From: Deefgea tanakiae
Lineage (GTDB): Bacteria; Pseudomonadota; Gammaproteobacteria; Burkholderiales; Chitinibacteraceae
Direction: 5' to 3'
NCBI RefSeq assembly: GCF_019665765.1
Contig: NZ_CP081150.1
Span: 1,240,001 to 1,304,000, forward strand
DNA length: 64,000 nt
Both the position numbers and the translations under genes were made by a program. This document shows, piece by piece, positions 10,920 through 31,319 of the stretch (positions within the stretch are counted from its first letter, which is position 1; each line of letters starts with the position of its first letter). Under the pieces are notes generated by a model. It was not told where the DNA came from. It searched no databases and was given only the letters and a program-made list of their open reading frames with translations.

Positions 10920-11791
10920 GGTACGCCTTCATTCGTGACCATCAAGCACTACATCCAGTTCGACGGCTCTGCCAGATGATGCAAGTCCATCCCAGCGGCT
11001 ACTACGCTTGGCTGCAACGACCACAATCATTGCGCACGATTGATGACCAGCGCTTGACTGGCATCATCACTGAAGCGTGGCAAGAAAGCGGCGGCGTCTA
11101 TGGTTATCGCAAGATTAATGATGACTTGCGTGATATGGGCGAACAATGTGGCAAGCATCGCGTCGCGCGCTTAATGCGCTTAGCTGGCCTTTGTTCACAA
11201 ACAGGCTATCGTCGTCGACGTGGTTTTTATGGTGGCAAGCCCACCGTAACGGCACCAAACCATTTGGCTCGGCAATTCAATGTCGATACACCTAATCAGG
11301 TTTGGGTGACTGACATTACCTATATTCGCACACAGGAAGGTTGGCTTTATTTGGCCGCAGTATTGGATTTGTTCTCAAGACAGGTTGTTGGTTGGTCGAT
11401 GGGCGCGCGGATGGACCGTGAGTTGGCGATTAAAGCTTTATTAATGGCGGTTTGGCGACGTCAGCCCAAGCAAGAGGTCTTAGTGCATTCGGACCAAGGC
11501 AGCCAATTCAGTAGTTATGATTGGCAGGATCTACTGCGTGTGCATAATTTAAAACCGAGCATGAGTCGGCGTGGCAATTGCCATGACAATGCGGTCGCGG
11601 AAAGTTTCTTCCAGCTATTGAAGCGGGAACGAATCAAACGACAAACCTACCGTAATCGAGAGGAGGCACGTCGAGATGTGTTCAATTATATCGAGATGTT
11701 TTACAACCCCAAGCGCCGCCATAGTTTCAATAATGGGCTATCACCAGTAGAGTATGAAAAGCAGTATTTCGAAAGGCTCGGCAGTGTCTAG
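10886..11791 (+). CDS. IS3-family transposase OrfB (DDE integrase part, reached by -1 frameshift)
   Basis: The frame opens at the slippery site (10886) with residues such as YAFIRDHQALHPVRRLCQMM, the expected OrfB N-terminus, so it is most likely read as part of OrfAB; an internal ATG at 10976 would give 271 residues. The catalytic DDE triad is visible: Asp in VWVTDITYI, Asp in VLVHSDQGSQF, and Glu in DNAVAESFFQLLK. An HTH_21-like region (GVYGYRKINDDL) precedes the core. Length and order match complete IS3 transposases, with no internal stop, so the element may still move. The stop lies 18 bases inside the right end. Confidence 0.92.
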   Translation, partial: GRRVLCQAIRVRYAFIRDHQALHPVRRLCQMMQVHPSGYYAWLQRPQSLRTIDDQRLTGIITEAWQESGGVYGYRKINDDLRDMGEQCGKHRVARLMRLAGLCSQTGYRRRRGFYGGKPTVTAPNHLARQFNVDTPNQVWVTDITYIRTQEGWLYLAAVLDLFSRQVVGWSMGARMDRELAIKALLMAVWRRQPKQEVLVHSDQGSQFSSYDWQDLLRVHNLKPSMSRRGNCHDNAVAESFFQLLKRERIKRQTYRNREEARRDVFNYIEMFYNPKRRHSFNNGLSPVEYEKQYFERLGSV

Positions 11792-16759: not shown

Positions 16760-17278
16760 ATGTTTAAGCTGATTCGAGAAGACTGGCAAACCTACCAGCG
16801 TGATCCATGGCGGCAAGGTTTATGGGTAATGGTCGTTTATCGCTTTGGAAATTGGCGTTATACCGTGCGGCCTGCCATATTGAGAAAACCGCTTTCTTTC
16901 GTTTACAAATTGCTCAAAGTGACCAGTCAAATTTTGACTGGCATTGATCTACCTTGTGAAACTCGTATCGGGCGGCGACTGAGAATTGATCATTTTGGTG
17001 GTGTGATTATCAGCGGCGATACGATTATTGGGGATGATGTGATTCTGCGGCATGGTGTTACGTTGGGTTTACGGCATGAAGGGCAAAGCGGCGCGCCGGT
17101 GTTAGGCGATCGCGTTGAAGTTGGCGCAGGGGCAAAGATTTTAGGTGCCATAAAGATTGGTGACGATGCCAAAATTGGCGCCAATGCGGTGGTATTAAAA
17201 GATGTGCCGTGTGGGGCGGTGGCGGTGGGTGTTCCTGCGAGAATTATGTATGCAGTAAAGAGAGATGAACATGTTTAA
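16760..17278 (+). CDS. Serine acetyltransferase-like hexapeptide acetyltransferase
   Basis: 172 residues from ATG 16760, directly preceded by GGAGG; an earlier in-frame start at 16670 would lie inside the previous gene. The N-terminus (REDWQTYQRDPWRQG and FGNWRY) and the beta-helix (RIGRRLRIDHFGGVIISGDT, ILRHGVTLG, GANAVVLKDV, VGVPARIM) match the CysE/WcaB group. In a polysaccharide locus such proteins acetylate the sugar repeat rather than make O-acetylserine; the short N-terminal helical domain, compared with true CysE of about 270 residues, fits this. It overlaps the PilZ gene by 14 bases. Confidence 0.8.
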   Translation: MFKLIREDWQTYQRDPWRQGLWVMVVYRFGNWRYTVRPAILRKPLSFVYKLLKVTSQILTGIDLPCETRIGRRLRIDHFGGVIISGDTIIGDDVILRHGVTLGLRHEGQSGAPVLGDRVEVGAGAKILGAIKIGDDAKIGANAVVLKDVPCGAVAVGVPARIMYAVKRDEHV

Positions 17279-18002
17279 TGTGTTTAAAGTATGGGGCAAT
17301 GCTGAAAAAGACCCGCCTGAAGCGGCTAAGGCATGGCAGGAACATGAGAATTTAATTCAAAACCCTCAACAAATCGTCGCCATCTTAAATCTCATCAACT
17401 TGCATCTACGTGATGGCCCAATCCCCTTACGATTGATGATTCGTGATATGGATCATGGCGAATTGGTGACTACATTCAGGCCAGATGCAAACAAGGCAGT
17501 CATTCGGTGTCGAATTGAGATTGAACACCACTTTGAGCCCGATGAAGAGTTGACATTTATCGCCGGTTGGGAAGGGAAACTCATCGCTTTTAGTGCATTT
17601 ATTATTCAGTCGCACACAATACGAGAATTTACCGTGTCATGGCCACAAGTCATGGTCAAAAGTATTGGTCGAGATACTTATCGAGTGCATCCGCACTTTG
17701 AATTACCGCTGTCAATTGAGTTAGCGAATGTGCATATGTCTGGTCATCTAATTGACCTGAGTGAAGGTGGCATGGCGTGTCATCTATCAACCGCGGATGC
17801 CCAGTCACTAATCAATGCAGGTCAATTAGTGAATGCCAATATTAGGGTTGGGCCCTTGCAATTTCGTGTGGCATTGATGACGATCTGTAGCGAAGTGCGC
17901 ACCCATCACGGCAACTACACTAGGTTGGGTATTTCATTTAAAGGCATATCTAATAATGACTTGGTGTGTATACGTCGTAGCTTGTTGGGGTGGCAGCATT
18001 AA
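17265..18002 (+). CDS. PilZ-domain c-di-GMP effector, YcgR-like layout
   Basis: 245 residues. Residues about 30-125 form a beta-rich N-terminal domain (RLMIRDMDHGELVTTF, IEIEHHFEPDEELTF) as in YcgR N-terminal (flagellar brake) domains. The PilZ domain follows (about 130-240) with both c-di-GMP motifs: R-x-x-x-R in GRDTYRVHP and D-x-S-x-x-G in LIDLSEGGM. Binding is therefore expected. Its place as the last gene of the rightward arm, overlapping the acetyltransferase, suggests that c-di-GMP controls polysaccharide assembly or export through it, as Alg44-type PilZ proteins do in other loci. Its stop overlaps the convergent regulator stop (TTAA at 17999-18002). Confidence 0.85.
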   Translation: MNMFNVFKVWGNAEKDPPEAAKAWQEHENLIQNPQQIVAILNLINLHLRDGPIPLRLMIRDMDHGELVTTFRPDANKAVIRCRIEIEHHFEPDEELTFIAGWEGKLIAFSAFIIQSHTIREFTVSWPQVMVKSIGRDTYRVHPHFELPLSIELANVHMSGHLIDLSEGGMACHLSTADAQSLINAGQLVNANIRVGPLQFRVALMTICSEVRTHHGNYTRLGISFKGISNNDLVCIRRSLLGWQH

Positions 18003-18706
18003 CTGGCTTGGGCGACCGGGGCACTGAGGTTGACGCTTTCTAAACGGTAGCCGTAGCCATAGACTGAAGTCAGTTGCCATTGGTGTGTGCCATCTAGTGC
18101 TAGCTTGCGGCGCAAACGACTGATGTGTGTATCGACAGTGCGAGTGTCAATTTCTACTTTGAGCCCCCAAATTTGCTCAAGCAAATTCATTCTGGAGAAT
18201 AATTTACCGGGGTGTTGAAATAAAAATAACGCTAAATCATATTCTTTTTGCGTCATTTCAATTTCTTTACCAGCAATTCGGATCAGGCGCTGGCTAGTAT
18301 CAATTTCAAAATTGCCCAGATGCAAAACTTGTGGCGCGACTGATTTAAATCGACGCAGCAATACTTCGATTCGCGCAAGTAGTTCCATGGATTTGATGGG
18401 TTTGATTAGGTAATCATCAGCACCGGTTTTTAATGCCGCTACGATATTGCTTTCATCTTCGATGGCTGTGGCGACCATGATCGGCGTTTGCCAACCAATA
18501 TTTTCTCTGACCCATTTGATGATCATGCCGCCCGAGTAATCAGGTAAATTCCAGTCAAGTAAAAATAAATCAAATTGAATAGTTTTTATTGCCTCGAAAA
18601 ATGCCAAACTGGTGTGGAAAGTTTGCGTATGGTGGCCGCCGCTTTGCAAGGTGAGCGCCAATAAATCCGCTTGAATCACATCATCTTCAACAATTGCAAT
18701 CAGCAT
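17999..18706 (-). CDS. OmpR/PhoB-family response regulator
   Basis: About 235 residues from ATG 18706; a GTG 12 bases earlier is also possible. The receiver domain (1-120) has the acidic pair VEDD, the phospho-acceptor Asp in LLDWNLPD and Lys in LIKPI. The winged-helix output domain (130-225) has EYDLALFLF, IDTRTVDTHISRLRRKL and SVYGYGYRLE. It is the last gene of the leftward arm, 50 bases after the HNOBA-phosphatase gene. No dedicated kinase is adjacent; the hybrid kinase at 29859 or an unlinked enzyme may phosphorylate it. It is a good candidate for the transcription factor that reads the gas-sensing module and controls the locus. Confidence 0.9.
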   Translation of the reverse strand: MLIAIVEDDVIQADLLALTLQSGGHHTQTFHTSLAFFEAIKTIQFDLFLLDWNLPDYSGGMIIKWVRENIGWQTPIMVATAIEDESNIVAALKTGADDYLIKPIKSMELLARIEVLLRRFKSVAPQVLHLGNFEIDTSQRLIRIAGKEIEMTQKEYDLALFLFQHPGKLFSRMNLLEQIWGLKVEIDTRTVDTHISRLRRKLALDGTHQWQLTSVYGYGYRLESVNLSAPVAQAS

Positions 18707-18756: not shown

Positions 18757-20775
18757 TTAATTGCTGAGTTCTTTCAGTTGTAAGCGAATCAAGTTAACTT
18801 GTTCAGCAGGAATTAAATAGTCGACTTGATCAACACAATTTTGAATAATAAACAATCCAAATCCGCCTTCTTTTTTGCCGCTAAAATCGGGTGCTTCAGC
18901 TAGGGTCGGGTCAAATGGGGCGCCTACATAGTAAAACTCAAGTGTCAGCGTAGTGGGTAATTGCAATAAATGCAGCACAAAAGGCGTGTCAGCTAATGGG
19001 GCGCTGACATGGCGAATGATATTGGTTGCTACTTCAACTGCTGCTAAATTGAGTTTGTCGTGCTGAGTTGGGCTCAGTTGAACGCGTTCACTAAGCCAAT
19101 GGCGTATTTCGGCTAGCACGCGCATATTCCGTGGGAATTCGTGACTGTGTAGTCCGCTGATTGGGTGCCGATATAAGCTAATTGCGGTGAAATCATCTGA
19201 GCGCTCATGCGAGTCTTCAAATAGATCAACAATTTGTCTTAATCGCTGCAGCACGATGGCAGCAGGAAGCTGTGCTTGATAAAGCTGTCGGACGAGTTCA
19301 ATAATCGGATCGGTTCCCATTAGCTCAGAATGGCTATTTCGCGCCTCAGTTACGCCGTCGGAGAAAAGCAGTAGTAAATCACCTGGTTTAAAATCATATT
19401 CAATGGTTTTGTAGAGCTCTTTGGGGTCAATTCCAATCGGAAGATTGTCGCCCGATAGCATTTCAACACGGCCATCATCATGAAACAGCAAGCCCTCTGG
19501 GTGCCCCGCATTGATGAAGTGCAAGGCGTTTTTATGCATATCAATACGAGCATAGGCCAAGGTGACAAATGATTCGAGTCGCCGCAATTCAGGTGTGATC
19601 CGCGCATGTAATTGGTTGATGATGCTTTCACATGATGGACGAACCCCTTGTTGTAATGAGGGCCAGAGTGTTTCAGCCATGATTCGAGTGTATTGATTTT
19701 TGAGTGCGGCCCCGATCATTGCCGCGGCAACGCCTTTGCCCATGACGTCGCCCGTCAACACATCAAAGCAGCCCGGTTCAATGGGGAAAAAATCAAAAAA
19801 GTCACCATCAATGCCTTGTGATGGTTGCGTGAAAGCCGAGATTTCCAAGCCCGCAACTTTAATTGGCGCTCCAAAGAGTAAAGATTGCTGAATGTCATGC
19901 CCCATTTTTAATTCACGTTCGCGGGCAGCGGTGAGCGCTGCTTGTTGCGATTTTCTCAAGCTAATGTCACGAATAATCCCCGTAAAGTGGAATTCATCAT
20001 CATAGCGGGTGGCACTGAGGGATAGCTCTGCGGGAAATTCGCTACCATCACTGCGTTTTGCGCTTACTTCACGGCGTTTGCCGATGACATCGAGTTCGGC
20101 CGCTTTGAGAAAGTTAATAATCAATTCAGGAGGAAGGCTTGTATGTGGTTCTGGGGCTAAATTCACTACACTTTGCCCAATGATCTCATCACTTCGCCAC
20201 GCAAACATTTGTTCTGCGGCGGGGTTAAAACTTTCAATCATGCCTTGATGATTAATCGTAATGATGGCATCGGCGGCTGTATTTAAAATACTTTGCAGTA
20301 CCGCCCGTTGTTTCTTTAGCCTTTGCGTGAGCTGGCGGGTTTCTTCAAGTGCGGTTTTTTCATCTTGAATGACTTGTAATAAATCAGCCGTCGCATCATG
20401 GACGGCAAAATTACTGAGTGATAATTGATGCCTTTGTAATTGGCTAACATCGGATAACCACGGTGAGCCAACAAAAATAAATTGCTCTGCGTTTTCGTTG
20501 GTACGAATAAATTGACCGCGTAGCCGAAGATCTGAATCAATACAGCGAAAAACAAATAAAGAATGCTGATTGTTGCGGATTAATTCGCCTGTAAACGGGG
20601 GGTGAGGGCGTTTTAATTGCAGAAAGTGTTCGATGGGTAAGCCAATATCCATCAGCGGCAAAATCAGGGGGATTGATGGCCCAAGGCCGACAAGACATAG
20701 CTCGGCATTGAGCACAAAATGAAAAGGAAATAGGGAGTTGATCGCCCCATTGGGTAATGTAGTTTCGTAGGGCAT
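18757..20775 (-). CDS. HNOBA-PAS-PP2C phosphatase-anti-sigma kinase fusion (H-NOX partner)
   Basis: 672 residues, four parts. Residues about 14-150 match the H-NOX-associated domain of soluble guanylate cyclases: FPFHFVLN, FLQLKRPHPPFTGE, LRLRGQFI, FVGSPWLSDVSQL and LSLSNFAVHDATADLL followed by a coiled segment. A PAS domain (about 165-285) precedes a SpoIIE/RsbU-type PP2C phosphatase (about 290-505) with QGIDGDFFDFF, TGDVMGKGVAAA and LLLFSDGVTEA, and then an RsbW-like ATPase (about 535-672) with AAVEVATNIIRH and GGFGLFIIQN. The phosphatase and kinase ends are opposing activities of a partner switch that acts on a STAS protein. The gene starts 6 bases after the H-NOX stop. This combination is unusual; domain calls are from motifs. 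Confidence 0.88.
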   Translation of the reverse strand: MPYETTLPNGAINSLFPFHFVLNAELCLVGLGPSIPLILPLMDIGLPIEHFLQLKRPHPPFTGELIRNNQHSLFVFRCIDSDLRLRGQFIRTNENAEQFIFVGSPWLSDVSQLQRHQLSLSNFAVHDATADLLQVIQDEKTALEETRQLTQRLKKQRAVLQSILNTAADAIITINHQGMIESFNPAAEQMFAWRSDEIIGQSVVNLAPEPHTSLPPELIINFLKAAELDVIGKRREVSAKRSDGSEFPAELSLSATRYDDEFHFTGIIRDISLRKSQQAALTAARERELKMGHDIQQSLLFGAPIKVAGLEISAFTQPSQGIDGDFFDFFPIEPGCFDVLTGDVMGKGVAAAMIGAALKNQYTRIMAETLWPSLQQGVRPSCESIINQLHARITPELRRLESFVTLAYARIDMHKNALHFINAGHPEGLLFHDDGRVEMLSGDNLPIGIDPKELYKTIEYDFKPGDLLLLFSDGVTEARNSHSELMGTDPIIELVRQLYQAQLPAAIVLQRLRQIVDLFEDSHERSDDFTAISLYRHPISGLHSHEFPRNMRVLAEIRHWLSERVQLSPTQHDKLNLAAVEVATNIIRHVSAPLADTPFVLHLLQLPTTLTLEFYYVGAPFDPTLAEAPDFSGKKEGGFGLFIIQNCVDQVDYLIPAEQVNLIRLQLKELSN

Positions 20776-20781
20776 TGGGTA

Positions 20782-21324
20782 TCACCACCAAACGATGAAT
20801 TGATCGAAGTCGTCTTGGGATTGCCTCACTTTGGTTTGCTCAACATTGACCGGTGTTGAAAATAAAATACCTAAGCCATCGAGTAGTCCGATGACAAAAT
20901 GCGCTAAACCCGGCCGATGTGAGTAGTATTTGAGTTGTATTTTTTGCGGTGCTAGCGCTTCACTAAAAAATTCAGGCGGTTTGAGCTCTGGGTATATGAG
21001 ATTCACCCTCGCATGAAAATTGGGCAAGTTAAGTAGGAATTCAGTCAGATTACTGCCGCCAGCTTCTAATAAACCGCCATAACTACGACGTCCTGTTTCG
21101 AGAACCCAGTGCCGGCCAAAATCTTCTAATAAAGGCGCAGCCTCTAGCTGAGTGACTTCGCAACTGGCTCCCACCAAACGGTAAGTTATTTCGTCGGGAT
21201 AGCCTTCGTTGGATAAAAAGAACTCATCGGCAAGCCCTGCTTTGCGCAGGATTTTGTCCCATGTGGGCTGGCCAAATCGGGTACAAACCATTTCTTCAAG
21301 GGCCTTATTAACAATGCCGTACAT
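20782..21324 (-). CDS. H-NOX heme-based NO/O2 sensor
   Basis: 180 residues, the full length of bacterial H-NOX domains. The family hallmarks are visible: N-terminal MYGIVNKALEEMV, the proximal heme-ligand His in LPNFHARVNL (about residue 104), and the propionate-binding Y-x-S-x-R as YYSHR (about 136). No distal Tyr typical of O2-binding members can be assigned by eye, so NO is the likelier ligand. No membrane segment is present. The next gene encodes the HNOBA domain that contacts H-NOX in guanylate cyclases, so this protein should signal through it. It follows wza by 17 bases in the leftward operon. Confidence 0.92.
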   Translation of the reverse strand: MYGIVNKALEEMVCTRFGQPTWDKILRKAGLADEFFLSNEGYPDEITYRLVGASCEVTQLEAAPLLEDFGRHWVLETGRRSYGGLLEAGGSNLTEFLLNLPNFHARVNLIYPELKPPEFFSEALAPQKIQLKYYSHRPGLAHFVIGLLDGLGILFSTPVNVEQTKVRQSQDDFDQFIVWW

Positions 21325-21341: not shown

Positions 21342-22340
21342 TTATAAAGCACTCAAGCCCAAAGTCAGTATCGACAATCCAGGGATTAATTGCCGGATTA
21401 CATAACCCGCCTCTGCGATCCCACTCTTGGGAACAAAGACCACATCACCTTCCTCAATGGCAAAATTCAGCATTTTTTCACGGGTCATTAAGGTTAGTAG
21501 TGGGGTTTGCTCTGCCGCTTGTTTGCTTGGCCGATAGATGGCAATTTTGTCGGGAGCAGCATCATCGTTGGGGCCGCCAGCTTGCGATAGTGCATCCATC
21601 AAAGACATATCAGGGGTAAGTCGATAGGCACCAGGTTTATGAACGGCACCAAGCACATACACCATGGTGTCGGAAGAGTCGGGGATGTAAACCAAGTCGT
21701 TCGCTTGCAGTGTGATGTTATAGGCAAGCTGGCCTCGGTTGAGTAGTTTTTTTAGATCGACCCAGATAATGCGGTCACGACCACGAAAGATGGCCACGCG
21801 GGTTAATGTGGCTTGTTTATCAATCACGGGGAGTGAGCCGGCACGCGCCAAGGTTTCTAGTAGTGAAGGCGGGCGATCAAATTGCTGCACCCCTGGATTT
21901 TGTACCCGCCCTAAAACGGTCACTCGATTCCCCGCATACTGCTCAATGCCCACAAAAACGGCAGGCTTTTTTATATAGGTTTTTAATGCGCTATCGATTC
22001 TCCCAGCTGCAGATTCTCGTGTTTCACCTGCTAAACGTAGCGTACCTGCCAGCGGTAAACTCAGTTGCCCATCAGGACCTAATAGTTGTTTTCCTGATAA
22101 TTCCGGGTGATTCCATACTGTGATTTGCAACTGATCGCCTTCTGCTAGCCGATAAACATTTTCACGTGGCGCGTCTAACTCGGCCAATAATTCTGGGCTG
22201 GCGTAATCGATTTGCTCAGATTTTTGCGCCGCTTGGAATACTTGAGTATTCATTGGGATTGCTTCGGGTATAGTGCTGCAGGCATTCATTAATAGTGCCG
22301 CCAGGATAATACTCATTGATCTAAGCATGGTGAGCCTCAA
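21342..22340 (-). CDS. Outer-membrane polysaccharide export protein, Wza/GumB-like
   Basis: 332 residues, lipoprotein signal ending LMNAC. A Poly_export domain (about 60-145) has YRLAEGDQLQITVWNHPELS and VGPDG-like text, then two SLBB domains: VLGRVQNPGVQQF and YVLGAVHKPGAYRL. The C-terminus is hydrophobic (IPGLSILTLGLSAL), as in proteins that form the octameric outer-membrane channel. The protein exports the finished polymer with the Wzc-like co-polymerase coded in the same arm. The gene overlaps the flippase gene by about 20 bases and is followed 17 bases later by H-NOX. The family call is firm; the specific gene name is left open. Confidence 0.9.
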   Translation of the reverse strand: MRLTMLRSMSIILAALLMNACSTIPEAIPMNTQVFQAAQKSEQIDYASPELLAELDAPRENVYRLAEGDQLQITVWNHPELSGKQLLGPDGQLSLPLAGTLRLAGETRESAAGRIDSALKTYIKKPAVFVGIEQYAGNRVTVLGRVQNPGVQQFDRPPSLLETLARAGSLPVIDKQATLTRVAIFRGRDRIIWVDLKKLLNRGQLAYNITLQANDLVYIPDSSDTMVYVLGAVHKPGAYRLTPDMSLMDALSQAGGPNDDAAPDKIAIYRPSKQAAEQTPLLTLMTREKMLNFAIEEGDVVFVPKSGIAEAGYVIRQLIPGLSILTLGLSAL

Positions 22341-23829
22341 GTGAGCGAGTGAAGCAAAGTTTTTGTTTTAGCCATTTTCTTTCGTCAGCATGCAAAATAA
22401 ACCACCATAAGATAAGGAGCTGTAAACCCATGAAGAGGGCACTGGCTAGTAGCAACTCGATCAGTGCGCTGCTACGACTACTTAGTTGCCAAGGCCAAAG
22501 CGAAACAAAGCTGTATGCCAGTAGGTAGTTCAGCGCCAATGGCTTGAAAATCAGCTTAAATAATTGCTTAGGTGCTAATTGCAAAGTTTTACTCGCTAGG
22601 GTTAAGTAAACCAATGACGCTAGGCCCTGACCGATAGAGAATATTTGTAGGAACTCAAGCAAGTTGTTTGCTTGTAAACTCACCAAAAAAACCATGGTTC
22701 GTAATCCATGATAGAAGAACTCAAGGCCAATTTGGTCTTTTCCGCGCAGTGCACTGGAAGCGGGGCCCGTTTGAATGTGTAGATGCCATGCAGGCGTCAC
22801 CCACAATAAGATGGTGACAATCTGCGCCAGTTCTGGACGAGGGCCGAGCCAGGCCAGGTTAAGTGCTGGGGCAGTAGCAACTAAGAGCGGCATCAAGCCA
22901 AGCAGTGAAAATACAGCTAAACGTTGTGCTTGTTGATACAAGCGACTAAATGATGCCGCATCCAAACTTGCTGCATGCGGCATCAGGGCTTGACTGATGC
23001 CTGACGTGATTGAGGTGGCGGTAGCTGGTAATTTGCTGCCCAAATCCATCAAGCCTGTATAGGCGGCACCAAAACTTAAACCTGCAATTAGCCGATCAGC
23101 GGAATGCAATAAAAGTGCCCATGAATCGCTTAGCTGCGCGCGCACGCCTAAGTTTAAAAAGGGCTGTAGATGCTGTTTTGAGAGGTGCTTAGGGTGCAAT
23201 GAAAGTGCGGGCCAAGCCCTTTTGACTCGCCACCACGAGAGTGAAATGGATAAGGCATAACGCAAAGTAAATGCCCACAGCAAGGCGCTAATCCCATACC
23301 CTAAAACCAATAGGGCGGCAGCGATGCACCACTCCAAAATAAAACTGACCACCCAGATGCGTTGTTGCTCATGGATGAGTTTTAGACCGTTTAAAACGTA
23401 ACCCCAAGCGCCCAAGGTTAAGTCAGCTAAAAAAATGAGGCATGTGAGCAGCAGTAAGTTTGAAGCGAGGCTATGCAACTGGGGGCTGATTTTGAACCAG
23501 CTCAATAGCATAGGCATAAAAAAAGCCACTAAAGCACAAAATAGACTGCCTACTAATAGCGCCAAGCCAACGCCGGTACTGAGCATTTTGCTAGCGTCTA
23601 GCGCATCGTCTCGATCTCGCGCCAAGGCAATTTCGCGCACATAGACCGTTGCCAGTCCAGAGACCGAGATGCCCAAATAACCCACTAAAATAAAAGCAAT
23701 CGACCACAAGCCATATTCGGCTAAACCGACATAAGTGAGTACTAAGGGTGGCAAGGCCAGACGACTGATCAGATACAGTGCGCGGGCGAGCATGCTTTCG
23801 AGTGCCACTCGATGAAATGCGGTTGACAT
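22321..23829 (-). CDS. Lipid-linked oligosaccharide flippase (Wzx-like)
   Basis: 502 residues with about 12-14 hydrophobic segments and few charged residues, the layout of MOP-superfamily flippases (RfbX/Wzx). It should move the undecaprenyl-linked repeat unit to the periplasmic side for polymerisation by the Wzy-like protein at 40697. Conserved charges in segments (for example the N-terminal SRLALPPLVL and the R-x-A-L pattern of GPASSALRGK) fit the family, but Wzx sequences are too variable for more. It is overlapped by wza at its 3' end and lies about 85 bases after the methyltransferase gene. Confidence 0.82.
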   Translation of the reverse strand: MSTAFHRVALESMLARALYLISRLALPPLVLTYVGLAEYGLWSIAFILVGYLGISVSGLATVYVREIALARDRDDALDASKMLSTGVGLALLVGSLFCALVAFFMPMLLSWFKISPQLHSLASNLLLLTCLIFLADLTLGAWGYVLNGLKLIHEQQRIWVVSFILEWCIAAALLVLGYGISALLWAFTLRYALSISLSWWRVKRAWPALSLHPKHLSKQHLQPFLNLGVRAQLSDSWALLLHSADRLIAGLSFGAAYTGLMDLGSKLPATATSITSGISQALMPHAASLDAASFSRLYQQAQRLAVFSLLGLMPLLVATAPALNLAWLGPRPELAQIVTILLWVTPAWHLHIQTGPASSALRGKDQIGLEFFYHGLRTMVFLVSLQANNLLEFLQIFSIGQGLASLVYLTLASKTLQLAPKQLFKLIFKPLALNYLLAYSFVSLWPWQLSSRSSALIELLLASALFMGLQLLILWWFILHADERKWLKQKLCFTRSLEAHHA

Positions 23830-23914
23830 GATCAGATCGCCAAGTAAGTTTTTATAAACTTATTAAAGCTTGGCGACGCAGTGCAATGATGGCAGGAGTG
23901 TAAACAATATCAGT

Positions 23915-24541
23915 TTAGCTTTTGAGCTGAGCCCGATATAGGTATTGGACAGCACAAAAAGGCTGCGCCCATGTGCATCGCCCCAGCCAGCGCCAAAAAC
24001 GCGATTGAGCCCACTGTTGTCCCGCGCCCTGAGTTTCGGTCACCTCAAATCCTGCTTGTTCAATCAGACTTTGTGCCGTTTTTTGGGTAAAAAAACGCAA
24101 ATGGGTCTGATCTAAAATACCTGCATCGCTATAGCGCCATTCGCCTTTAAAAAGAAGCGGCATTAAAACACTGTGATGTCGAATATTTGGGATGCTGACA
24201 ATGAGTTGCCCTGTTGGGGTGAGTAAATCACGTAGGCGGCGTAGCATTAACCATGGGTCTCGGAGGTGTTCCAGTACATCCAGACACAGTACCAAATCAA
24301 AACGCCCTAACTCGCTGAAGTCAAGCTGCTCGGCATTGCCTTCGACGATTAGATCGAGTTGTTGTCGTGCCATCGCGCTAGCGTCATGACTATATTCAAC
24401 GCCGATAATTTCGTCACAATGTCCTGTCTGCTTGAGCCAAGCTAAAGTAGCGCCACTGCCGCAGCCTAATTCGAGTACCCGCTTGGCATGGGTGGGTAGC
24501 AAGGGGCTAATTTCGGTTCGTACAAAGCCAAAGTAATCCAT
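23915..24541 (-). CDS. Class I SAM-dependent methyltransferase
   Basis: 208 residues, Rossmann-fold methyltransferase. Motif I is RVLELGCGSGATLAWL, motif II IIGVEYSHDAS, and DLVLCLDVLEHLRDPW is the VLEHxxDP-like post-motif, followed by VSIPNIRHHSVL. This is the Methyltransf_11/UbiE-like group often found in polysaccharide and O-antigen loci, where it methylates sugars. No membrane segment. An AGGAG ribosome site lies before ATG 24541, and the GT25 gene ends 10 bases upstream. The substrate cannot be predicted. Its place between a GT25 enzyme and the flippase supports modification of the repeat unit. Confidence 0.85.
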   Translation of the reverse strand: MDYFGFVRTEISPLLPTHAKRVLELGCGSGATLAWLKQTGHCDEIIGVEYSHDASAMARQQLDLIVEGNAEQLDFSELGRFDLVLCLDVLEHLRDPWLMLRRLRDLLTPTGQLIVSIPNIRHHSVLMPLLFKGEWRYSDAGILDQTHLRFFTQKTAQSLIEQAGFEVTETQGAGQQWAQSRFWRWLGRCTWAQPFCAVQYLYRAQLKS

Positions 24542-24551
24542 GATGATGCTC

Positions 24552-25280
24552 CTAATTCAAAGTGGGGGCACGTCGCCATGCCTGTTTGATTTTGCGAGCC
24601 CATGCTGCGCATTGGCGAATTAGGGGCCAGCGGTCATACCACCAGTGAGCTTGAATATCACTGCGCGAAAAGCGTTGTTCAATCCAGCTTGGCTGGGCAA
24701 TCCAAGTGCGACAACTAGGATTAAATTGACGAAATAAACTCAGTGCACCGTCGTAATGCAAACGCCCTCCCAGTGGATGGCCTGCTGGTCGACTGATGCA
24801 CCCTTCAAGATAAGGTAGGAGCGTATCTAAATAAGCGATCCGAACCAGGTAACCATGTGCGCCAATCACCGGTGCTGCACTCATGTTTAAGCCCGGGGTA
24901 ACCTCCATTTCGCCTGTTACGTGGCAGTGCCCCAAATAAATCAAATCAGCCTGTTCACTTGCAAGTACTTCGGCAAGGACGGGCAACTGCATGTTGAAAT
25001 CACTGGTAAATACCGCGTCATCTTCAAGAATGAGTGCCCAGCCTTGTTTAGCGTGACGAGCATCTTGTAGTGCGGCAACATGGCTTAAAAAACACCCATA
25101 CGCCCCCAGACTAGGGAATTGATTACTATCGACTGGGCGTATGGCTAGCCAGCATATGACTTGATTGGCTTGCCAGTGAATACCTATATGATTGAGGGTA
25201 TGTTCAACTTCCTTTTTTCGATCTGTGCGTTCAGGGAGGTTCAACACATAAATTCGGCTCACAATGTCAGTTAGGATCAT
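24552..25280 (-). CDS. Glycosyltransferase family 25
   Basis: 242 residues. RIYVLNLPERTDRK near the start, ACxxSH-like text (GAYGCFLSHVAALQDARH) and LILEDDAVF, the acidic metal-site, mark the GT25 family that includes LPS beta-galactosyltransferases. The C-terminal 40 residues are basic and aromatic. The start overlaps the Wzc-like stop by 4 bases (ATGA), so the two are translated together. GT25 enzymes are usually found in lipooligosaccharide synthesis; here, the setting points to a branch or terminal sugar of the exopolysaccharide. The acceptor is unknown. Confidence 0.85.
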   Translation of the reverse strand: MILTDIVSRIYVLNLPERTDRKKEVEHTLNHIGIHWQANQVICWLAIRPVDSNQFPSLGAYGCFLSHVAALQDARHAKQGWALILEDDAVFTSDFNMQLPVLAEVLASEQADLIYLGHCHVTGEMEVTPGLNMSAAPVIGAHGYLVRIAYLDTLLPYLEGCISRPAGHPLGGRLHYDGALSLFRQFNPSCRTWIAQPSWIEQRFSRSDIQAHWWYDRWPLIRQCAAWARKIKQAWRRAPTLN

Positions 25281-27514
25281 GATTTGCTCCGCAATAAAGC
25301 ACTGATTTGATGCTGAAGGTCGCGCGGCAAGTGGAGCGCTGTTTGCAGTAGTATTTTCATCGTGCTTGTGATTTGACTTGCAATGCCTGCTTGTTGTTTT
25401 TTTTGCCCACTGATGAATTCATCCATCAAATCATTCACATAACCGCCACCATCGAGTGGCCGTACTTGGTTCACAATGACGCCAATTGATGCTGGATCAA
25501 TGCTTTGCAATACACGTGCCGCACGGGCGACTTCGCCTCGCCCTTGTGCCTCGGCTTCGACAATCGCAATCACCGCAGGCGTTGACCTGAGCGCAAGTTC
25601 CGCATCGCCGCTGACCAATAGTGGCGGCAAATCTACCAGTACGAATCGATATGTGTGGGCCAAATGCGTCAGTGTTTCGCCTAAGCGATCTATGGCGTGA
25701 ATATGCCTATCGTTGCCGGACAAATACAATTGGGCGGTGTCTAAGTTAAGCGCCGATGGAATGCCATTGGCCAGATCATGGTGAGGTGCATTCGCGAAGC
25801 GTGGGTCACGACTAAATGCATTCGCTTCTACAGCGATTGCTGGTAATCCCATATCGGCAAAGGTTTTCTGCAAGTCGAATACGGTCGTTGATGTACCCCC
25901 TTGCGGTTGTAAGGCGGTAAAGCCAAAGACGCGCAATTGGGTACGATCTTGTTCGCGTATCAAGGCACTGGCTAATCGGCGAAGTTGATCGGTACGGAAT
26001 AATTGGCTGTCATTGTCTTTGGCGTGGATCAGCCAGCCCACTGGCGGGAATCCAAATCCACTGACCACATCATTGGGGGTATGAATGCGTCGATCCATTA
26101 AATCGTAAACGATTGGCAATAAGAGGCCTGCAGCCAGCGATGCAATAATTGCCATGAGTAGTAATTTGGTTTTGCCAACGCCCAGTGGTGTTTCTGGCGT
26201 CATCGCTGCGCTAACTAAACGTACAAAACCCAAGGCGCTGGTTTCGGCGGCGAAGAAATTCAAGCGCTCTTGGATCGCATCCAGTTCTTTACGAATTTGC
26301 GTCACATCAGCGGATAAATTTTGCGCTTCTTTAAACAGCGTTGCGAAGTGGCCGCGGGATTTTTCTTGCTCGGTGAGCTCACGCTGTAAATCTGCCTCTA
26401 ATTGAGCGCTTTGGGTCGACGCGGTGCTAAATCTGCTTTGTAGGTTGCGACGTACTTCGCTGGTGATTTTTTCAGTCTGTTGACGAATTTCAGCATCAAT
26501 TTCCGCTAGTTCGATTTTATTTTGTTGATAGCCAGGGTGTTGTGGGGTGAGTCCCGCCATACCAGACACTAAAGTCGCCCTTCGATTATTCAGGCTGGCT
26601 TTGAGGCTATTTAGGCCTGGGTCCACTGACACACTTTCTAAAATAGATCTAACACCGGGATCGGTATCGCCATGCGTCAGAAAGGCTTTTTCATTCGCCG
26701 CGGCTGAAAAACGTTTGATCTTGGCATCGGCCAAGGCTTCGCGTAGTCGTTCGATGGCTTTGTCGTAAGGATTGCCCGCTTCTTCGGAAAAGGTTGCTAT
26801 GCCTAAATCGCCCGCAATGGTGTTGCGCCGCTCGGCTTTTTCATCAATCTGCGTGAGTAAAAGGTCTTGGCGTTTTTGTAATTGCGCAATTCGCTCGTCT
26901 TTGCCAAACACTTGTTCATCGCGAACCCGTTCCAAATAAACGCTCACGACGCCATTAATAATCGGAGCCAGTTCGGCTTTGTTTTTGCCAGATAAGCCAA
27001 TGCGCACCATATAGGTATCTGAAACGGCAGAAACTTGTAAGAGATTACGAAGTCGCTCTACGGCGTGACGCTCGCTCTCATTGGGGCGTTGCCACAGCGA
27101 AGTCTTTTGTGGCTGTGCAGGGGCTTGTGTGATTTTTGAACCGCCAATGGCGTAATCCAATTGCAATTGATTTGTATTTGTTGGGCTTGAAGCTTGTATT
27201 TGGTGGTTTTGATTGGCAAGCCGTATGCCATCGCGCAGGATGTCGTAACGCTGGATGGTATTGCTTTGTTGCTGCACAAATTGGCGATATTGTGAATTGG
27301 ATTGAAAGTCGAGCTCATTATCGTCCTTGAGCGTTTTCATATAACGAGGCGCGATTTGAATGACCGATTCAGCTTCGTAAAAAGATTGACCTTTTATCCA
27401 CACCATCGGTAGGGCCGCCAGAAAGGTCAGTATTACAGCACAAACCGCAAGCCGAGGGTGCTGACGCAAGCTTACGAGCGGTTTGATACCGATTCCTGCA
27501 CTGGCTTGTGCCAT
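25277..27514 (-). CDS. Wzc/GumC-like polysaccharide co-polymerase with degenerate kinase domain
   Basis: 745 residues. N-terminal Wzz domain with two membrane segments (about 22-40 and 425-447) and a long periplasmic coiled region between them (about 200-410), which sets chain length. The cytoplasmic part (about 500-690) has the fold markers of BY-kinases, FVLVDLPPLLVSGDAE (Walker A'/B-like) and IGVIVNQVRP, but the Walker A site reads QPQGGTSTT, lacking the Lys of the usual GEGKST, and no tyrosine cluster is present at the C-terminus. So phosphotransfer is probably lost, and the domain may serve only for assembly. It overlaps the GT25 gene by ATGA and follows the sugar pyrophosphorylase by 2 bases. 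Confidence 0.87.
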   Translation of the reverse strand: MAQASAGIGIKPLVSLRQHPRLAVCAVILTFLAALPMVWIKGQSFYEAESVIQIAPRYMKTLKDDNELDFQSNSQYRQFVQQQSNTIQRYDILRDGIRLANQNHQIQASSPTNTNQLQLDYAIGGSKITQAPAQPQKTSLWQRPNESERHAVERLRNLLQVSAVSDTYMVRIGLSGKNKAELAPIINGVVSVYLERVRDEQVFGKDERIAQLQKRQDLLLTQIDEKAERRNTIAGDLGIATFSEEAGNPYDKAIERLREALADAKIKRFSAAANEKAFLTHGDTDPGVRSILESVSVDPGLNSLKASLNNRRATLVSGMAGLTPQHPGYQQNKIELAEIDAEIRQQTEKITSEVRRNLQSRFSTASTQSAQLEADLQRELTEQEKSRGHFATLFKEAQNLSADVTQIRKELDAIQERLNFFAAETSALGFVRLVSAAMTPETPLGVGKTKLLLMAIIASLAAGLLLPIVYDLMDRRIHTPNDVVSGFGFPPVGWLIHAKDNDSQLFRTDQLRRLASALIREQDRTQLRVFGFTALQPQGGTSTTVFDLQKTFADMGLPAIAVEANAFSRDPRFANAPHHDLANGIPSALNLDTAQLYLSGNDRHIHAIDRLGETLTHLAHTYRFVLVDLPPLLVSGDAELALRSTPAVIAIVEAEAQGRGEVARAARVLQSIDPASIGVIVNQVRPLDGGGYVNDLMDEFISGQKKQQAGIASQITSTMKILLQTALHLPRDLQHQISALLRSKS

Positions 27515-27516
27515 GA

Positions 27517-28698
27517 TTATTGTTGGCCTATGGCAAGCGGCTCAAATTGATCTAGCTGCGCTAAAAAATGCTGCTCGCGATGATAAATCGGTGCAAGCTG
27601 GGTACGACTATCGGCCAGTACCCAGGGAATATCGCTGGCAATCGGATCGATTGTTAGCCCATCTTTACAGGCGCACCAACGACCACTGGCTAGCATTTCA
27701 ATCAGGGAGGCTTGACTACCTACGCGGGTGTAGTCAAAAACTAAGCTGCGTTCGATATGAGCGCCGCGTTCAATGTGCGCGCCTCGACCAATCCAGAGTG
27801 GCCCAATCAATGTGGCGCCATCTTCAATCGTGACACTATCAGCAATTACGATCGGTCCTTGTATATGGCAGCGGCGTGGGTCGAAGCGGGTGTTTGCGCC
27901 GACAAAAACATTGGGGGCAATTTCTCGTCCCGGACGAGGAACGGCGGGAACGTTGCCGCAAATGGCATCCATTTGTACCGCGTAATAATCTGAGACTCGA
28001 CCAATATCCACCCAGTTAAATGGAATTTCAGCACCATACAAAGCCTGCCCGTCACGAGCCAACTGAGGGAACACATCGCTACCAAGGTCATAAGGGGTCT
28101 TTTCGGGGATGTATTTTAGAATTTCGGGTTCAAACACATACACCCCTGTATTGACTAAGTCGCTTTGGGCTTCGCCAAATTTGGGTTTTTCTTGGAAGGC
28201 CATAATGCGGCCAGTGTCATCTAATAGTGCAACCCCATATTGTGAGCATTTTTCTGGTGCGATACGGCTTAGGGCCAAGGTAGCGAGTGCACCAGCTTGA
28301 TGGTGCGCAGCAACCAGTGCGGTTAAATCTAAATCAATTAAGGCATCGCCACAGAGTACCAAAAACGTGTCGTCAAAAAAGCCAGAGTGTTTTTGAATTT
28401 GTCGAATCGTTCCTGCTGAACCTAGCGGGGTGTCGTGTAGTTGGCCATCCGCTTCGTAGCCTTCGTAGCTAAATGCCAACTCAACCCCAAAACGTCGCCC
28501 ACTTGCAAAATAGCCTTCGATCTCGCTCGCTAAATAGCTGGTGTTGATCACGATTTGATCGACTCCATGCTTGGCTAATTGCTCGATCAGACATTCCAAA
28601 ACAGGGCGATCCAGAATCGGCAGCATCGGTTTTGGGCAGTCACGACTCAATGGCATCAAACGAGTGCCTTTGCCTGCGGCTAAAATGAGGGCTTTCAT
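27517..28698 (-). CDS. NDP-sugar pyrophosphorylase (mannose-1-phosphate guanylyltransferase-like) with beta-helix tail
   Basis: 393 residues. The nucleotidyltransferase domain (1-235) starts MKALILAAGKGTRLMPLS, with the catalytic G-x-G-T-R and Lys in CPKPMLPI, plus LCGDALIDLDL and EKPKFGEA. A hexapeptide beta-helix (about 265-335) follows: IAPNVFVGANTRF, IEDGATLIGPLWIG. Such enzymes make GDP-mannose or NDP-glucose from sugar-1-phosphate and NTP; the closest pattern is GMP-type Man-1-P guanylyltransferase, but this is not certain. Start overlaps the STAS stop by 4 bases. It should supply the activated sugar for the locus. A degenerate relative is fused to the WecG protein at 32124. Confidence 0.85.
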   Translation of the reverse strand: MKALILAAGKGTRLMPLSRDCPKPMLPILDRPVLECLIEQLAKHGVDQIVINTSYLASEIEGYFASGRRFGVELAFSYEGYEADGQLHDTPLGSAGTIRQIQKHSGFFDDTFLVLCGDALIDLDLTALVAAHHQAGALATLALSRIAPEKCSQYGVALLDDTGRIMAFQEKPKFGEAQSDLVNTGVYVFEPEILKYIPEKTPYDLGSDVFPQLARDGQALYGAEIPFNWVDIGRVSDYYAVQMDAICGNVPAVPRPGREIAPNVFVGANTRFDPRRCHIQGPIVIADSVTIEDGATLIGPLWIGRGAHIERGAHIERSLVFDYTRVGSQASLIEMLASGRWCACKDGLTIDPIASDIPWVLADSRTQLAPIYHREQHFLAQLDQFEPLAIGQQ

Positions 28699-29033
28699 GC
28701 TTGCACTCCTTCAATTTCATTGAGCGAGTTGAATACTTGAAATACGCGATGCATACGCATTAATTCAAACAGCGCAGACACTGGGCGTTGCAAGCCATAG
28801 AGCGCAAAACTGCCGCCTTGCTCGGTGCAAAAACGTAAACAAGATAAGAGGGCGCCTAAACCAGAGCTATCAACAAAAGAGAGCGCTGACATATCGAGTG
28901 CAATTTTTCCAGATGATTCAAGAACTGGCCGGATTTGTTTGCGAAAAGCATCCGCGTTACTGGCATCAAGGCTGGTGGTGTTAAATGTAATCACAGTTTG
29001 GGTGCTGTGCGTGTGACGAGTAATGAGTTCCAT
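28695..29033 (-). CDS. STAS-domain anti-anti-sigma-like protein
   Basis: 112 residues from ATG 29033, which is preceded by AAGGAG; an earlier in-frame ATG at 29087 is less likely. The core is ALDMSALSFVDSSGLGALLS with the conserved phospho-acceptor Ser of SpoIIAA/RsbV proteins, preceded by TTSLDASNADAFRKQI. In partner switches, the unphosphorylated form binds the RsbW-like kinase and the PP2C phosphatase reactivates it. The same leftward arm encodes a fused PP2C/RsbW-like protein (18757), so the two probably form one system. It overlaps the pyrophosphorylase gene by ATGA, tying the switch to polysaccharide synthesis. Confidence 0.88.
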   Translation of the reverse strand: MELITRHTHSTQTVITFNTTSLDASNADAFRKQIRPVLESSGKIALDMSALSFVDSSGLGALLSCLRFCTEQGGSFALYGLQRPVSALFELMRMHRVFQVFNSLNEIEGVQA

Positions 29034-29195: not shown

Positions 29196-29489
29196 CTACC
29201 AAACGTTATGCTGGAGGCATTGCTTAAGGTAGCAGTCAATGGGAACCAGCTCGTGTTTGAGTGTATGTTCGAGTTCACGAGTCAGGCGGCTAATTTCAGC
29301 AAAACCAAGTGAGCCAGCAGCACCTGCGAGACGGTGTAATTCGTTGAGTAATTCAGCACTAGCAGTGTCTTGCGTGCTGTTTTTCCAAGCTGCTTCAATC
29401 AGGGCGAGGCGCTGTGGGAGCTCAATTTGAAAGCGTTGCCGCAATTGAGTGAGGCCTGCGGCGAAAGCGTCTTGATTAAACTCCGGCAT
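29196..29489 (-). CDS. HPt phosphotransfer protein
   Basis: 97 residues from ATG 29489; the longer frame to 29576 would run into the receiver gene. The segment LLNELHRLAGAAGSLGFAEI is the HPt motif with the phospho-accepting His (about residue 53), flanked by helices; the protein is otherwise a plain four-helix bundle. It can pass phosphate from the hybrid kinase coded upstream to the separate receiver proteins here, including those at 29476 and 17999. The start overlaps the receiver gene by 14 bases, so translation is coupled. A gap of about 160 bases separates it from the STAS gene. Confidence 0.85.
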   Translation of the reverse strand: MPEFNQDAFAAGLTQLRQRFQIELPQRLALIEAAWKNSTQDTASAELLNELHRLAGAAGSLGFAEISRLTRELEHTLKHELVPIDCYLKQCLQHNVW

Positions 29490-29871
29490 GAAACTCGCTC
29501 CAGAAATGATTGAGTAGTTCAGGTAATAGCATTGGATCAAAGGGTTTGCTGGCGACAAAGTTGGCACCGGCCGCAATCAGTGGTGCCAGCTCTTCGGTGC
29601 TTGCCTTGGCGGTTAACATGACAATACACACCGCACAGCCATGAGGTAGTGCCCGCAGCAATGGAATAAATTCAGGGCCACTGAGTTCAGGCATCATTAC
29701 ATCAAGCACTATCATTTGTGGTAGGGTATTTCCTTCTAGGTGTTTTATTGCAATGCTTGCAAGTGAATACGCTGTTATTGTATATCCACCTAAAGTCGTT
29801 AAACTGAGTTCTAATAAGCTACGGATATCGGCATCATCTTCAATGATGGCGATTTGATTTAAGGCTTGCAT
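29476..29871 (-). CDS. Single-domain response regulator (CheY-like)
   Basis: 131 residues, a receiver with no output domain: acidic pair IIEDDAD, phospho-acceptor Asp in IVLDVMMPELSG, Thr in MLTAKAS and Lys in ASKPFDP. Such proteins either act by protein contact or shuttle phosphate to an HPt protein. Here the HPt gene follows with overlap, and the hybrid kinase gene precedes with overlap of 13 bases. So the three genes form a phosphorelay block at the head of the leftward polysaccharide arm. The final target is not shown by the sequence. Confidence 0.9.
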   Translation of the reverse strand: MQALNQIAIIEDDADIRSLLELSLTTLGGYTITAYSLASIAIKHLEGNTLPQMIVLDVMMPELSGPEFIPLLRALPHGCAVCIVMLTAKASTEELAPLIAAGANFVASKPFDPMLLPELLNHFWSEFHAGV

Positions 29872-31319
29872 TGCAAAGCTCCTTGCGGGAAGGCCAGTTC
29901 AAAGCAGGTGCCAAGCTCGCTGGTTCGATAATGAATTTGCCCCTCCATCGCTTCGATCAATTGTTTGGTAATCGCTAAGCCAAGGCCGCTGCCGCCGCGG
30001 ATGCGGGCGTCGCCTGACTCGGCTTGGCTAAATGGGGTAAATAATCGAGGTTGAAAGTCAATTGGGATGCCGTTGCCTTGGTCTTCAACTGCTAAGTGGA
30101 GTTGCTCATCATGGATCTGCGCACGCACCGTGACCGTGCCCTGTTTAGGTGAAAACTTGCATGCATTAGAAATAAGGTTGCCTAAGATTTGCATCAAGCG
30201 ATGGTGATCGGTGAGTATTTGTGTATTGCTGATTTCGGGCGCTAAAGCTAATTGGATTTTGACTTGGTGCTGAGCGGCGTAGCCCGCATGCGCCGATTGA
30301 GCTTCGGCAAGTAGTTCACCCAGCGAATGCCATTGCAGATCGAGCTGCAAACTGCCCGCAGCGCTGCGATTAATATCAAGCAGCTCATTGACCATTTTTA
30401 GTAGACGCCCGGCATTGCGATCTGCCATCTCGATGAGTTGGGTGCTTGTGGCATTAAATTGCGCAGCTTGGGTGCCGTGTAGCATTTTAAGTGCGCCAAT
30501 AATCGACGTCAGAGGGGTACGCAATTCGTGGCTGAGTGTTGCGATAAACTGCTGTTTAAGTTGATCCACTCGTTCACGTTCGCTAATGTCGCGCACCGTC
30601 GCTAAAAGATAAGGCTCATCATCTTGATAAAAGAAAGTCACACCCACTTCAACCGGTAACTCACTCCCGTCCAAGCCTTTGGCAAGCAGTACTTGGCTGT
30701 GTAAGCCGGCTTCTGCAGCGCCATTCAATTGAAGTTTAGGTAGTAGCTCGCTCAGCGGGCGACCAATCAGTTGCTCACGTTCTGCATGAAACAGTAGCTC
30801 GCCGCGAAAGTTAATCCCTTGTATTCGTTGATGGGGATCGACCACTAAAATTCCATCAAAGCTATTTTCGGTGATCGCACGAGAGCGAGTTAGCAGCGCG
30901 CTATGCTGCCTTTGCAAGTTTAAAACGCGGGCGAGATTGTTGAGTTTATGCCCCAAAATTTCAGCAGAGATGGGTTTGTGTAAAAAGTCGTCGGCCTGTG
31001 CTTGTAATGCTTTGAGTAAATGCGCCTCACCATCTAAACCAGAGAGCACCACCACGGGGGTCCAACGTTCGCCCTCAGTGGCTTTGATGGCACGAGTCAC
31101 CGCAAAACCATCGATTTCCGGCATTAATAAATCCAGTAGTACGATATCTGGCTGCTCGGCTTCGAATAGACGTAAAGCTTCAGCGCCACCACTAGCTTGC
31201 AGTGTTTTAAAGCCTAGTTTTTGTACGATGCTGCAAATTTGCAAACGGGTAATGGCGATGTCATCTACGACCAAAACGCTGAGATGGGTATTTAATGCGA
31301 TGGGTTGAGTGAGTGGCAT
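29859..31319 (-). CDS. Hybrid histidine kinase: receiver-PAS-HisKA-HATPase
   Basis: 486 residues, soluble. The receiver comes first (about 12-130: VVDDIAITR, LLDLLMPEIDG, LHKPIS), then a PAS domain (about 145-250: ENSFDGILVVDPHQ), the dimerisation helix with the phospho-His in FIATLSHELRTPLTSII (about 265), and the ATPase with N-box ILGNLISNACKFSP, G1 VEDQGNGIP and G2 GGSGLGLAITKQLIE. Lacking membrane segments, it senses an internal signal. It is the first gene of the leftward arm, 77 bases from the divergent sugar transferase, and its stop overlaps the single-domain receiver start. It probably feeds a phosphorelay to the HPt protein. Confidence 0.9.
   Translation of the reverse strand: MPLTQPIALNTHLSVLVVDDIAITRLQICSIVQKLGFKTLQASGGAEALRLFEAEQPDIVLLDLLMPEIDGFAVTRAIKATEGERWTPVVVLSGLDGEAHLLKALQAQADDFLHKPISAEILGHKLNNLARVLNLQRQHSALLTRSRAITENSFDGILVVDPHQRIQGINFRGELLFHAEREQLIGRPLSELLPKLQLNGAAEAGLHSQVLLAKGLDGSELPVEVGVTFFYQDDEPYLLATVRDISERERVDQLKQQFIATLSHELRTPLTSIIGALKMLHGTQAAQFNATSTQLIEMADRNAGRLLKMVNELLDINRSAAGSLQLDLQWHSLGELLAEAQSAHAGYAAQHQVKIQLALAPEISNTQILTDHHRLMQILGNLISNACKFSPKQGTVTVRAQIHDEQLHLAVEDQGNGIPIDFQPRLFTPFSQAESGDARIRGGSGLGLAITKQLIEAMEGQIHYRTSELGTCFELAFPQGALQCKP

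Follow-up and report, generated by a model that had tools for sequence, protein, structure and literature searches.

What an H-NOX gas sensor might control when it is coupled to a protein phosphatase is the question raised by one locus of Deefgea tanakiae, whose genome (3.56 Mb, one contig) we examined over a window of 64 kb, i.e. the whole stretch of DNA analysed. On the minus strand of this window, a gene encoding an H-NOX protein is followed 6 nt later by one for a protein of 672 amino acids, which opens with an HNOBA domain and continues with PAS, PP2C and RsbW-type HATPase domains, and both genes stand among genes for exopolysaccharide synthesis. A preliminary description of this DNA had read them as a split sensor resembling soluble guanylate cyclase (sGC) with a partner-switch output, and its open reading frames (ORFs), gene calls and intergenic spacing were all found to be right. 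The reading that we favour, with a confidence modestly above even, is that of a phosphatase partner switch under gas control, which acts on exopolysaccharide and on a STAS protein encoded in the same cluster.

Domains of the H-NOX protein and its phosphatase partner

Both proteins were scanned against Pfam, and all of their matches lay above the curated cut-offs (Table 1). The HNOB profile matched residues 2–163 of the H-NOX protein with 156.9 bits against a cut-off of 25.5, and the closest solved structure was Alr2278 from Nostoc, followed by sGC β1. Trp73, His104, Pro117 and Tyr133-Ser135-Arg137 align with Alr2278, the heme-binding His named in the preliminary description being retained as His104, and all of these residues are identical in the corresponding H-NOX proteins of seven other genomes of the taxonomic family and of L073, a contig from a metagenome-assembled genome (MAG) of Candidatus Eremiobacterota. 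All nine H-NOX proteins partnered with an HNOBA-PP2C protein carry the proximal His and the Y-x-S-x-R heme motif, and the pocket of the window protein is, as judged from this alignment, of the Alr2278/sGC type.

The second protein does open with an HNOBA domain in the region where one had been proposed, the profile scoring 71.2 bits against a cut-off of 23.4 in two stretches of about residues 7–80 and 82–155. The AlphaFold model of this domain (pLDDT 83) has sGC β1 and the Nostoc H-NOXA domain as its best matches, and all 23 Foldseek matches at E≤0.001 were to soluble guanylate cyclase or Nostoc H-NOXA; the model thus predicts a PAS-type fold of the sGC kind. As the preliminary description had it, the output is not a cyclase: the Pfam scan detected no class III cyclase catalytic domain in the 672-amino-acid chain, but PAS, SpoIIE and HATPase_c_2 domains instead. 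The nearest solved relatives of the PAS domain are the FixL heme domains.

The phosphatase motifs GDVMGKG, FSDGV and DDFT are intact, with DGDFFD (residues 323–328) just upstream of the domain coordinates, and the set is complete in all eight family rows and in L073. By fold, the PP2C domain matched SiaA, RssB, Rv1364c and SpoIIE, and the top Foldseek match of the full 672-amino-acid model was the RsbU-RsbW protein Rv1364c of Mycobacterium tuberculosis (PDB 3ke6; E=5.6e-18), with which the PP2C-HATPase part agrees domain by domain, although the domains are arranged differently (rmsd 14.9). When used alone as a phmmer query the HATPase domain found no PDB match, whereas a 10-row profile of it matched RsbW with E=1e-19; in nine of nine aligned rows neither the N-box residues Glu581 and Asn585 nor the EGGFGL-box glycines vary. 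These data point to a GHKL fold of the RsbW type with its N box, so that the 'RsbW-like kinase' of the preliminary description stands as regards the fold; its catalytic competence is considered below.

The gene cluster and its distribution

The pair belongs to a row of 13 genes on one strand, running from 31319 down to 17999, which confirms the exopolysaccharide setting. In the direction of transcription the order is REC-PAS-histidine kinase, receiver, Hpt, STAS, six exopolysaccharide genes, H-NOX, HNOBA-PAS-PP2C-HATPase and OmpR-type regulator (Table 1). Most neighbours overlap or are at most 38 nt apart, larger gaps preceding STAS (162 nt) and separating the methyltransferase gene from that for Wzx (85 nt), and we infer that the row forms one transcript. 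The six exopolysaccharide genes encode a sugar nucleotidyltransferase-like protein, a Wzc-like protein, a glycosyltransferase family 25-like protein, a methyltransferase, a Wzx-like protein and the Wza export protein; library comparison was made for Wza and Wzc, the other names being assigned from the sequence. Scans for promoter-like sites (10, compared with 20.0 in shuffled sequences and therefore below chance) and terminators (21 compared with 17.0, at chance) were not used. Just beyond the exopolysaccharide cluster lies a transposase-like ORF (10976–11791, rve and HTH_21 domains), presumably of IS3 type, which possibly bears on the mobility of the cluster.

Table 1. Coordinates of the gene row, its domains and the converging PilZ gene in the window
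Feature	Position	Strand	Evidence
H-NOX protein, 180 aa	20782..21324	-	PF07700 E=5.5e-46; PDB Alr2278 E=4.1e-47; alignment of 20 H-NOX
HNOBA-PAS-PP2C-HATPase protein, 672 aa	18757..20775	-	ORF; 6 nt from H-NOX ORF
HNOBA domain and signalling helix, residues 1-165 of 672-aa protein	20281..20775	-	PF07701 E=1.2e-19; AlphaFold model
PAS domain, residues 160-271 of 672-aa protein	19963..20298	-	PF00989 E=3.3e-15; FixL E=1.3e-21
PP2C/SpoIIE phosphatase domain, residues 335-534	19174..19773	-	PF07228 E=5e-37; motif scan; fold matches
RsbW/SpoIIAB-type HATPase domain, residues 553-665	18781..19119	-	PF13581 (HATPase_c_2) E=1.9e-12
OmpR/PhoB-type response regulator, immediately 3′ of the H-NOX/phosphatase pair	17999..18706	-	PF00072, PF00486
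STAS anti-anti-sigma-like protein, 112 aa, proposed substrate	28695..29033	-	PF01740 E=4.5e-18; TIGR00377
Hpt phosphotransfer protein (start codon picked by eye)	29196..29489	-	PF01627 E=1.6e-12
Single-domain receiver	29476..29871	-	PF00072 E=8.4e-17
REC-PAS-histidine kinase	29859..31319	-	Pfam scan
Six exopolysaccharide genes, STAS to H-NOX	21342..28698	-	Wza: PF02563; Wzc, Wza: NCBIfam matches below cut-offs; gene order
PilZ-domain protein, gene convergent with that of the response regulator	17265..18002	+	PF07238 E=3.7e-9

Conservation was assessed across the taxonomic family in 43 genomes, among them that of the window. HNOBA was found in nine of them, with a PP2C output in eight and a histidine kinase in one (G010), and in all eight the H-NOX gene adjoins the HNOBA-PP2C gene. 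Both ORFs are intact in every case, with catalytic and heme residues invariant at identities down to 52%. The closest named relative of the locus is that of Deefgea salmonis, where the 672-amino-acid protein is 88% identical over its full length. The pair, a close STAS orthologue and the Wza export gene occur in the same eight genomes and in no others, indicating that the switch moves together with the exopolysaccharide cluster in a single block of patchy occurrence, which is missing from three of the seven genomes of the window's own genus. Two arrangements were seen: STAS and phosphatase share one gene row in the window, G021, G023 and G012, and lie 19–22 kb apart within the cluster in G005, G009, G019 and G034. 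Whatever the arrangement, the genes for H-NOX, HNOBA-PP2C and the OmpR-type regulator are contiguous in all eight clusters, the regulator orthologue (78–90% identity) being directly 3′ of the pair in all seven other than the window's, and STAS stays with the sugar-nucleotide gene, which it overlaps by 4 nt in seven of eight clusters according to the ORF calls. In trees, G019, a member of the window's genus, groups with G005, G009 and G034 of other genera, a position that fits transfer of a cassette.

A PilZ protein is encoded near the regulator or STAS in all seven other clusters, adjoining STAS in the second arrangement, with 26–38% identity to the window protein in six of the seven and 67% in L051. 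Seven family genomes (G023 and G029–G034) carry two H-NOX genes each, G029–G033 having no HNOBA match.

Outside the family HNOBA is rare: at E≤1e-6 it was found in 3 of 369 genomes at the class level and 4 of 398 at the phylum level, both counts including the genome of the window. At the order level PF07701 matched 47 of 399 genomes at E≤0.001 and 18 of 399 above the cut-off, but many of these matches span only profile positions of about 149–216, i.e. the signalling helix, and were not counted as HNOBA. Thirteen HNOBA genes without PP2C were collected (one in the family, 12 outside): 11 encode histidine kinase domains, one encodes GGDEF-EAL (L175) and one is cut by the contig (L060). H-NOX lies directly beside HNOBA in nine of the 13 (L052, L054–L057, L060 and L174–L176) and 3.3 kb away in L053; L177 is at a contig end, and no H-NOX was found near the HNOBA of L058 or L059 within the 19 kb examined. 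We therefore rejected the split pair as new in itself; the unusual element is the PP2C output. At L175:2454–4839 (genome G617), H-NOX is followed directly by HNOBA-GGDEF-EAL, a split guanylate cyclase-like sensor with a cyclic di-GMP (c-di-GMP) output; HNOBA with GGDEF has been noted already (PMC8846402).

The suggestion that the exact domain order was unmatched did not hold, nor is the architecture private to the family of Deefgea. A scan of genome contigs with two short peptide patterns, from which the best 80 of 320 relatives were taken and in which distant cases are undercounted, yielded the L073 contig, where H-NOX overlaps the start of an HNOBA-PAS-PP2C-HATPase gene whose product is 34% identical to the 672-amino-acid protein over residues 12–652. 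The same best 80 of 320 relatives included two near-identical contigs, L074:1–2126 (uncultured bacterium, H-NOX cut by the contig end) and L075:7225–9635 (Acidobacteria MAG), with H-NOX directly before a coil-PAS-PP2C-HATPase gene without HNOBA. These three are single contigs, and binning errors are possible for those from MAGs. A single clade of L073 with the family was weakly rejected by the PP2C-HATPase tree (p-AU 0.031), in a test grouped by architecture after the tree had been seen and involving long branches, but not by the HNOBA tree (p-AU 0.486); the former excludes the short fragments L080, L082 and L084. Among plasmids, 707 of 72,556 records matched and none covered 80% of the query; the best match, on Vitreoscilla pVF1, spans residues 134–665 and is sister to the eight family rows in the PP2C-HATPase tree (97/95), and no H-NOX is among its annotated neighbours within 4 kb.

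A proposed gas-gated partner switch and the alternatives to it

The proposed substrate is a STAS protein that was absent from the gene listing of the preliminary description. It matched TIGR00377 (anti-sigma factor antagonist) with 63.3 bits against a cut-off of 53.45 and has a phosphosite motif, D55-S56-S57-G58, whose DSSG is present in eight of eight orthologues; in all eight clusters it lies within the exopolysaccharide cluster. PPM/PP2C phosphatases of this kind target STAS anti-anti-sigma proteins (PMC11418112, PMC8256260), and phosphatase, RsbW-type and STAS folds occur together in one cluster in all eight genomes, albeit with an incomplete kinase motif.

From these features we infer the following chain of events. 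The heme of H-NOX would bind NO, and H-NOX, being a subunit of its own, would dock on the HNOBA domain of the 672-amino-acid protein in the manner of the fused domains of guanylate cyclase, and ligand binding would alter the HNOBA-signalling helix-PAS stalk and thereby set PP2C activity. The phosphatase would then dephosphorylate Ser56 of the STAS protein, which the RsbW-type domain would bind and might phosphorylate, and the phosphorylation state of STAS would pick its partner and turn exopolysaccharide output up or down, while the co-encoded histidine kinase, receiver and Hpt proteins and the OmpR-type regulator would set transcription. As to the sign, our guess, taken from guanylate cyclase, is that NO switches the phosphatase on, and the opposite is possible: oxidized H-NOX of Vibrio cholerae inhibits its kinase as far as the NO-bound form does (PMC8738867).

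Several observations weigh against this reading, which is weakest in its choice of STAS as substrate and in the kinase step. The D-x-G Asp of RsbW is replaced by Tyr616, with Tyr in all eight family rows, and there may thus be no kinase step at all. Over the 43 genomes the Wza orthologue (E≤1e-60) and STAS are distributed identically, STAS is remote from the phosphatase gene in the four genomes of the second arrangement, and no sigma or anti-sigma target of the switch was identified.

The Asp bears most directly on the possibility that the switch is phosphatase-only, with the HATPase domain, no longer a kinase, offering STAS or a sigma factor a place to dock and another enzyme phosphorylating STAS, an alternative that we consider doubtful yet worth keeping in view. 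In RsbW and SpoIIAB this Asp sits two residues before the motif Gly (D-E-G) and contacts adenine. The position is His in L073, L074 and L075, Tyr or His in L076–L079 and L083 and Cys in L178 (by eye); among looser relatives with a readable domain only L081 has Asp, L082 being unreadable. Since most looser relatives lack the Asp, its loss characterizes a wider branch of PP2C-HATPase fusions. This fits a domain that only docks and makes the label 'kinase' in the preliminary description doubtful, but loss in so many relatives could equally mean an alternative adenine pocket, and the invariance of Glu581, Asn585 and the EGGFGL glycines speaks against this alternative. So does the distance in score to other such domains of the genome: of 16 HATPase_c_2 matches, six of them above the family cut-off, that of the 672-amino-acid protein is the best at 51.8 bits, the next scoring 38.6 (the 15 lower ones being judged by score only).

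We think it unlikely that a genuine gas pair acts instead on another STAS or sigma pathway, in which case the operon STAS protein would belong to the histidine kinase/receiver/Hpt branch. STAS adjoins the genes of that branch or PilZ and never the pair, and inheritance of the whole cluster accounts for the co-occurrence; because Wza shows the same pattern, co-occurrence indicates one inherited cluster and not a specific partnership, and we rejected it as proof of the latter. On the other hand, 13 of the 43 family genomes have STAS matches at E≤0.001, but those of at least 68% identity are confined to the eight that carry the pair, so that a close orthologue is missing from all 35 genomes without it, and the known action of such phosphatases on STAS proteins also speaks for the operon protein.

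A response to oxygen, carbon monoxide or redox state instead of NO appears less probable still. Position 143, which we take to be a distal-pocket position, is Phe in the window H-NOX and Met in nine of 11 H-NOX proteins not paired with HNOBA-PP2C, and no Tyr was present at any distal position inspected (141–144 and 147) in the nine partnered H-NOX proteins. As O2-binding H-NOX proteins require a distal Tyr (PMC8738867), NO is our best guess for the ligand, and it agrees with Alr2278 and sGC β1 as the closest solved relatives. However, redox-responsive, heme-free H-NOX proteins have been described (PMC8738867).

The PAS domain, being FixL-like, also lends something to oxygen. In the column that we assign to the heme-ligand His of FixL, His is present in five of eight family rows and in L073, L074 and L075; in the window this His is absent and replaced by Pro, with Ser and Tyr in the other two rows of the Deefgea clade (L051 and L050). 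Loss of a second heme in that clade is possible but only a lead, because heme-free PAS domains may have His in this column too. A sensor that hitchhikes or decays, without a present role, is very improbable: the patchy occurrence of the cluster and the grouping of G019 with other genera are as expected of a moving cassette, but both ORFs are intact throughout and the catalytic and heme residues do not vary.

The gas-gated partner switch can be extended, speculatively and with rather low expectation, to a history in which H-NOX was wired to PP2C switches repeatedly (through HNOBA here and in Eremiobacterota, without it in Acidobacteria), the FixL-like PAS of the fuller versions also binding heme so that one phosphatase would read NO and O2, and Deefgea having dropped the second heme while keeping an NO-gated exopolysaccharide switch.

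Relation to known systems and significance

Compared with sGC β1 of animals, H-NOX is here a separate protein and PAS-PP2C-HATPase takes the place of the cyclase. Bacterial pairs of H-NOX with an HNOBA-histidine kinase, such as that of Nostoc punctiforme (HNOBA, PDB 2p04/2p08), differ in their histidine kinase output. Rv1364c likewise has PP2C (RsbU) followed by RsbW in one chain but places its domains differently, and presumably lacks an H-NOX/HNOBA input.

Among the matches listed for open-licence PubMed Central full text, none described an H-NOX/HNOBA protein with a PP2C/SpoIIE or partner-switch output, although the 2003 paper that reportedly defined HNOB and HNOBA may mention one; the word Deefgea was in none of the matches listed by a search of open-licence papers. 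The 2006 paper on the signalling helix, in the part available, names both HNOBA and PP2C around the helix but not in combination, and 'heme' does not appear in the available text of a survey from 2025 of how PP2C domains are arranged in bacterial proteins (PMC12088040). One review names as H-NOX partners histidine kinases, diguanylate cyclases/phosphodiesterases and chemotaxis domains fused to the sensor, and the legend to its Figure 6, which gives neighbour families present in at least 20% of a group's genomes, includes neither SpoIIE nor STAS (PMC8738867). The PP2C output is a new variant of a known sensor module.

On the output side, the locus probably encodes a partner switch of the SypE/HsbR kind that takes a gas as its input. 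In Vibrio fischeri, the kinase/phosphatase SypE phosphorylates Ser56 of the small STAS protein SypA (PMC8256260), and this pair is likewise encoded in a polysaccharide locus and controls biofilm, but SypE, a response regulator, receives its input from histidine kinases and not from a gas sensor (PMC3843225, PMC8256260). In Pseudomonas aeruginosa, HsbR combines PP2C and an RsbW-type kinase in one protein, acts on Ser56 of the STAS protein HsbA and has an Hpt protein in its pathway; its input, however, is a REC domain phosphorylated through HptB (PMC6482189). Both systems show that polysaccharide or biofilm can be under the control of a kinase/phosphatase together with a STAS protein. The heme-based oxygen stressosome of Vibrio brasiliensis also feeds a gas-sensing heme domain into an Rsb-type phosphorylation switch, but there a globin sensor is fused to STAS in an RsbR/S/T complex, whereas here the sensor is fused to PP2C, and the accessible part of that report mentions no H-NOX, HNOBA or PP2C fusion (PMC4976288).

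The two-gene form offers separate proteins with which to measure ligand-dependent docking of H-NOX on HNOBA, a step that is hard to isolate in the fused guanylate cyclase. If the favoured reading is true, the guanylate cyclase stalk of HNOBA and signalling helix would drive an enzyme beyond the cyclase, the histidine kinase and the c-di-GMP enzyme, and the PP2C output would link the sensing of NO directly with serine phosphorylation and with polysaccharide synthesis.

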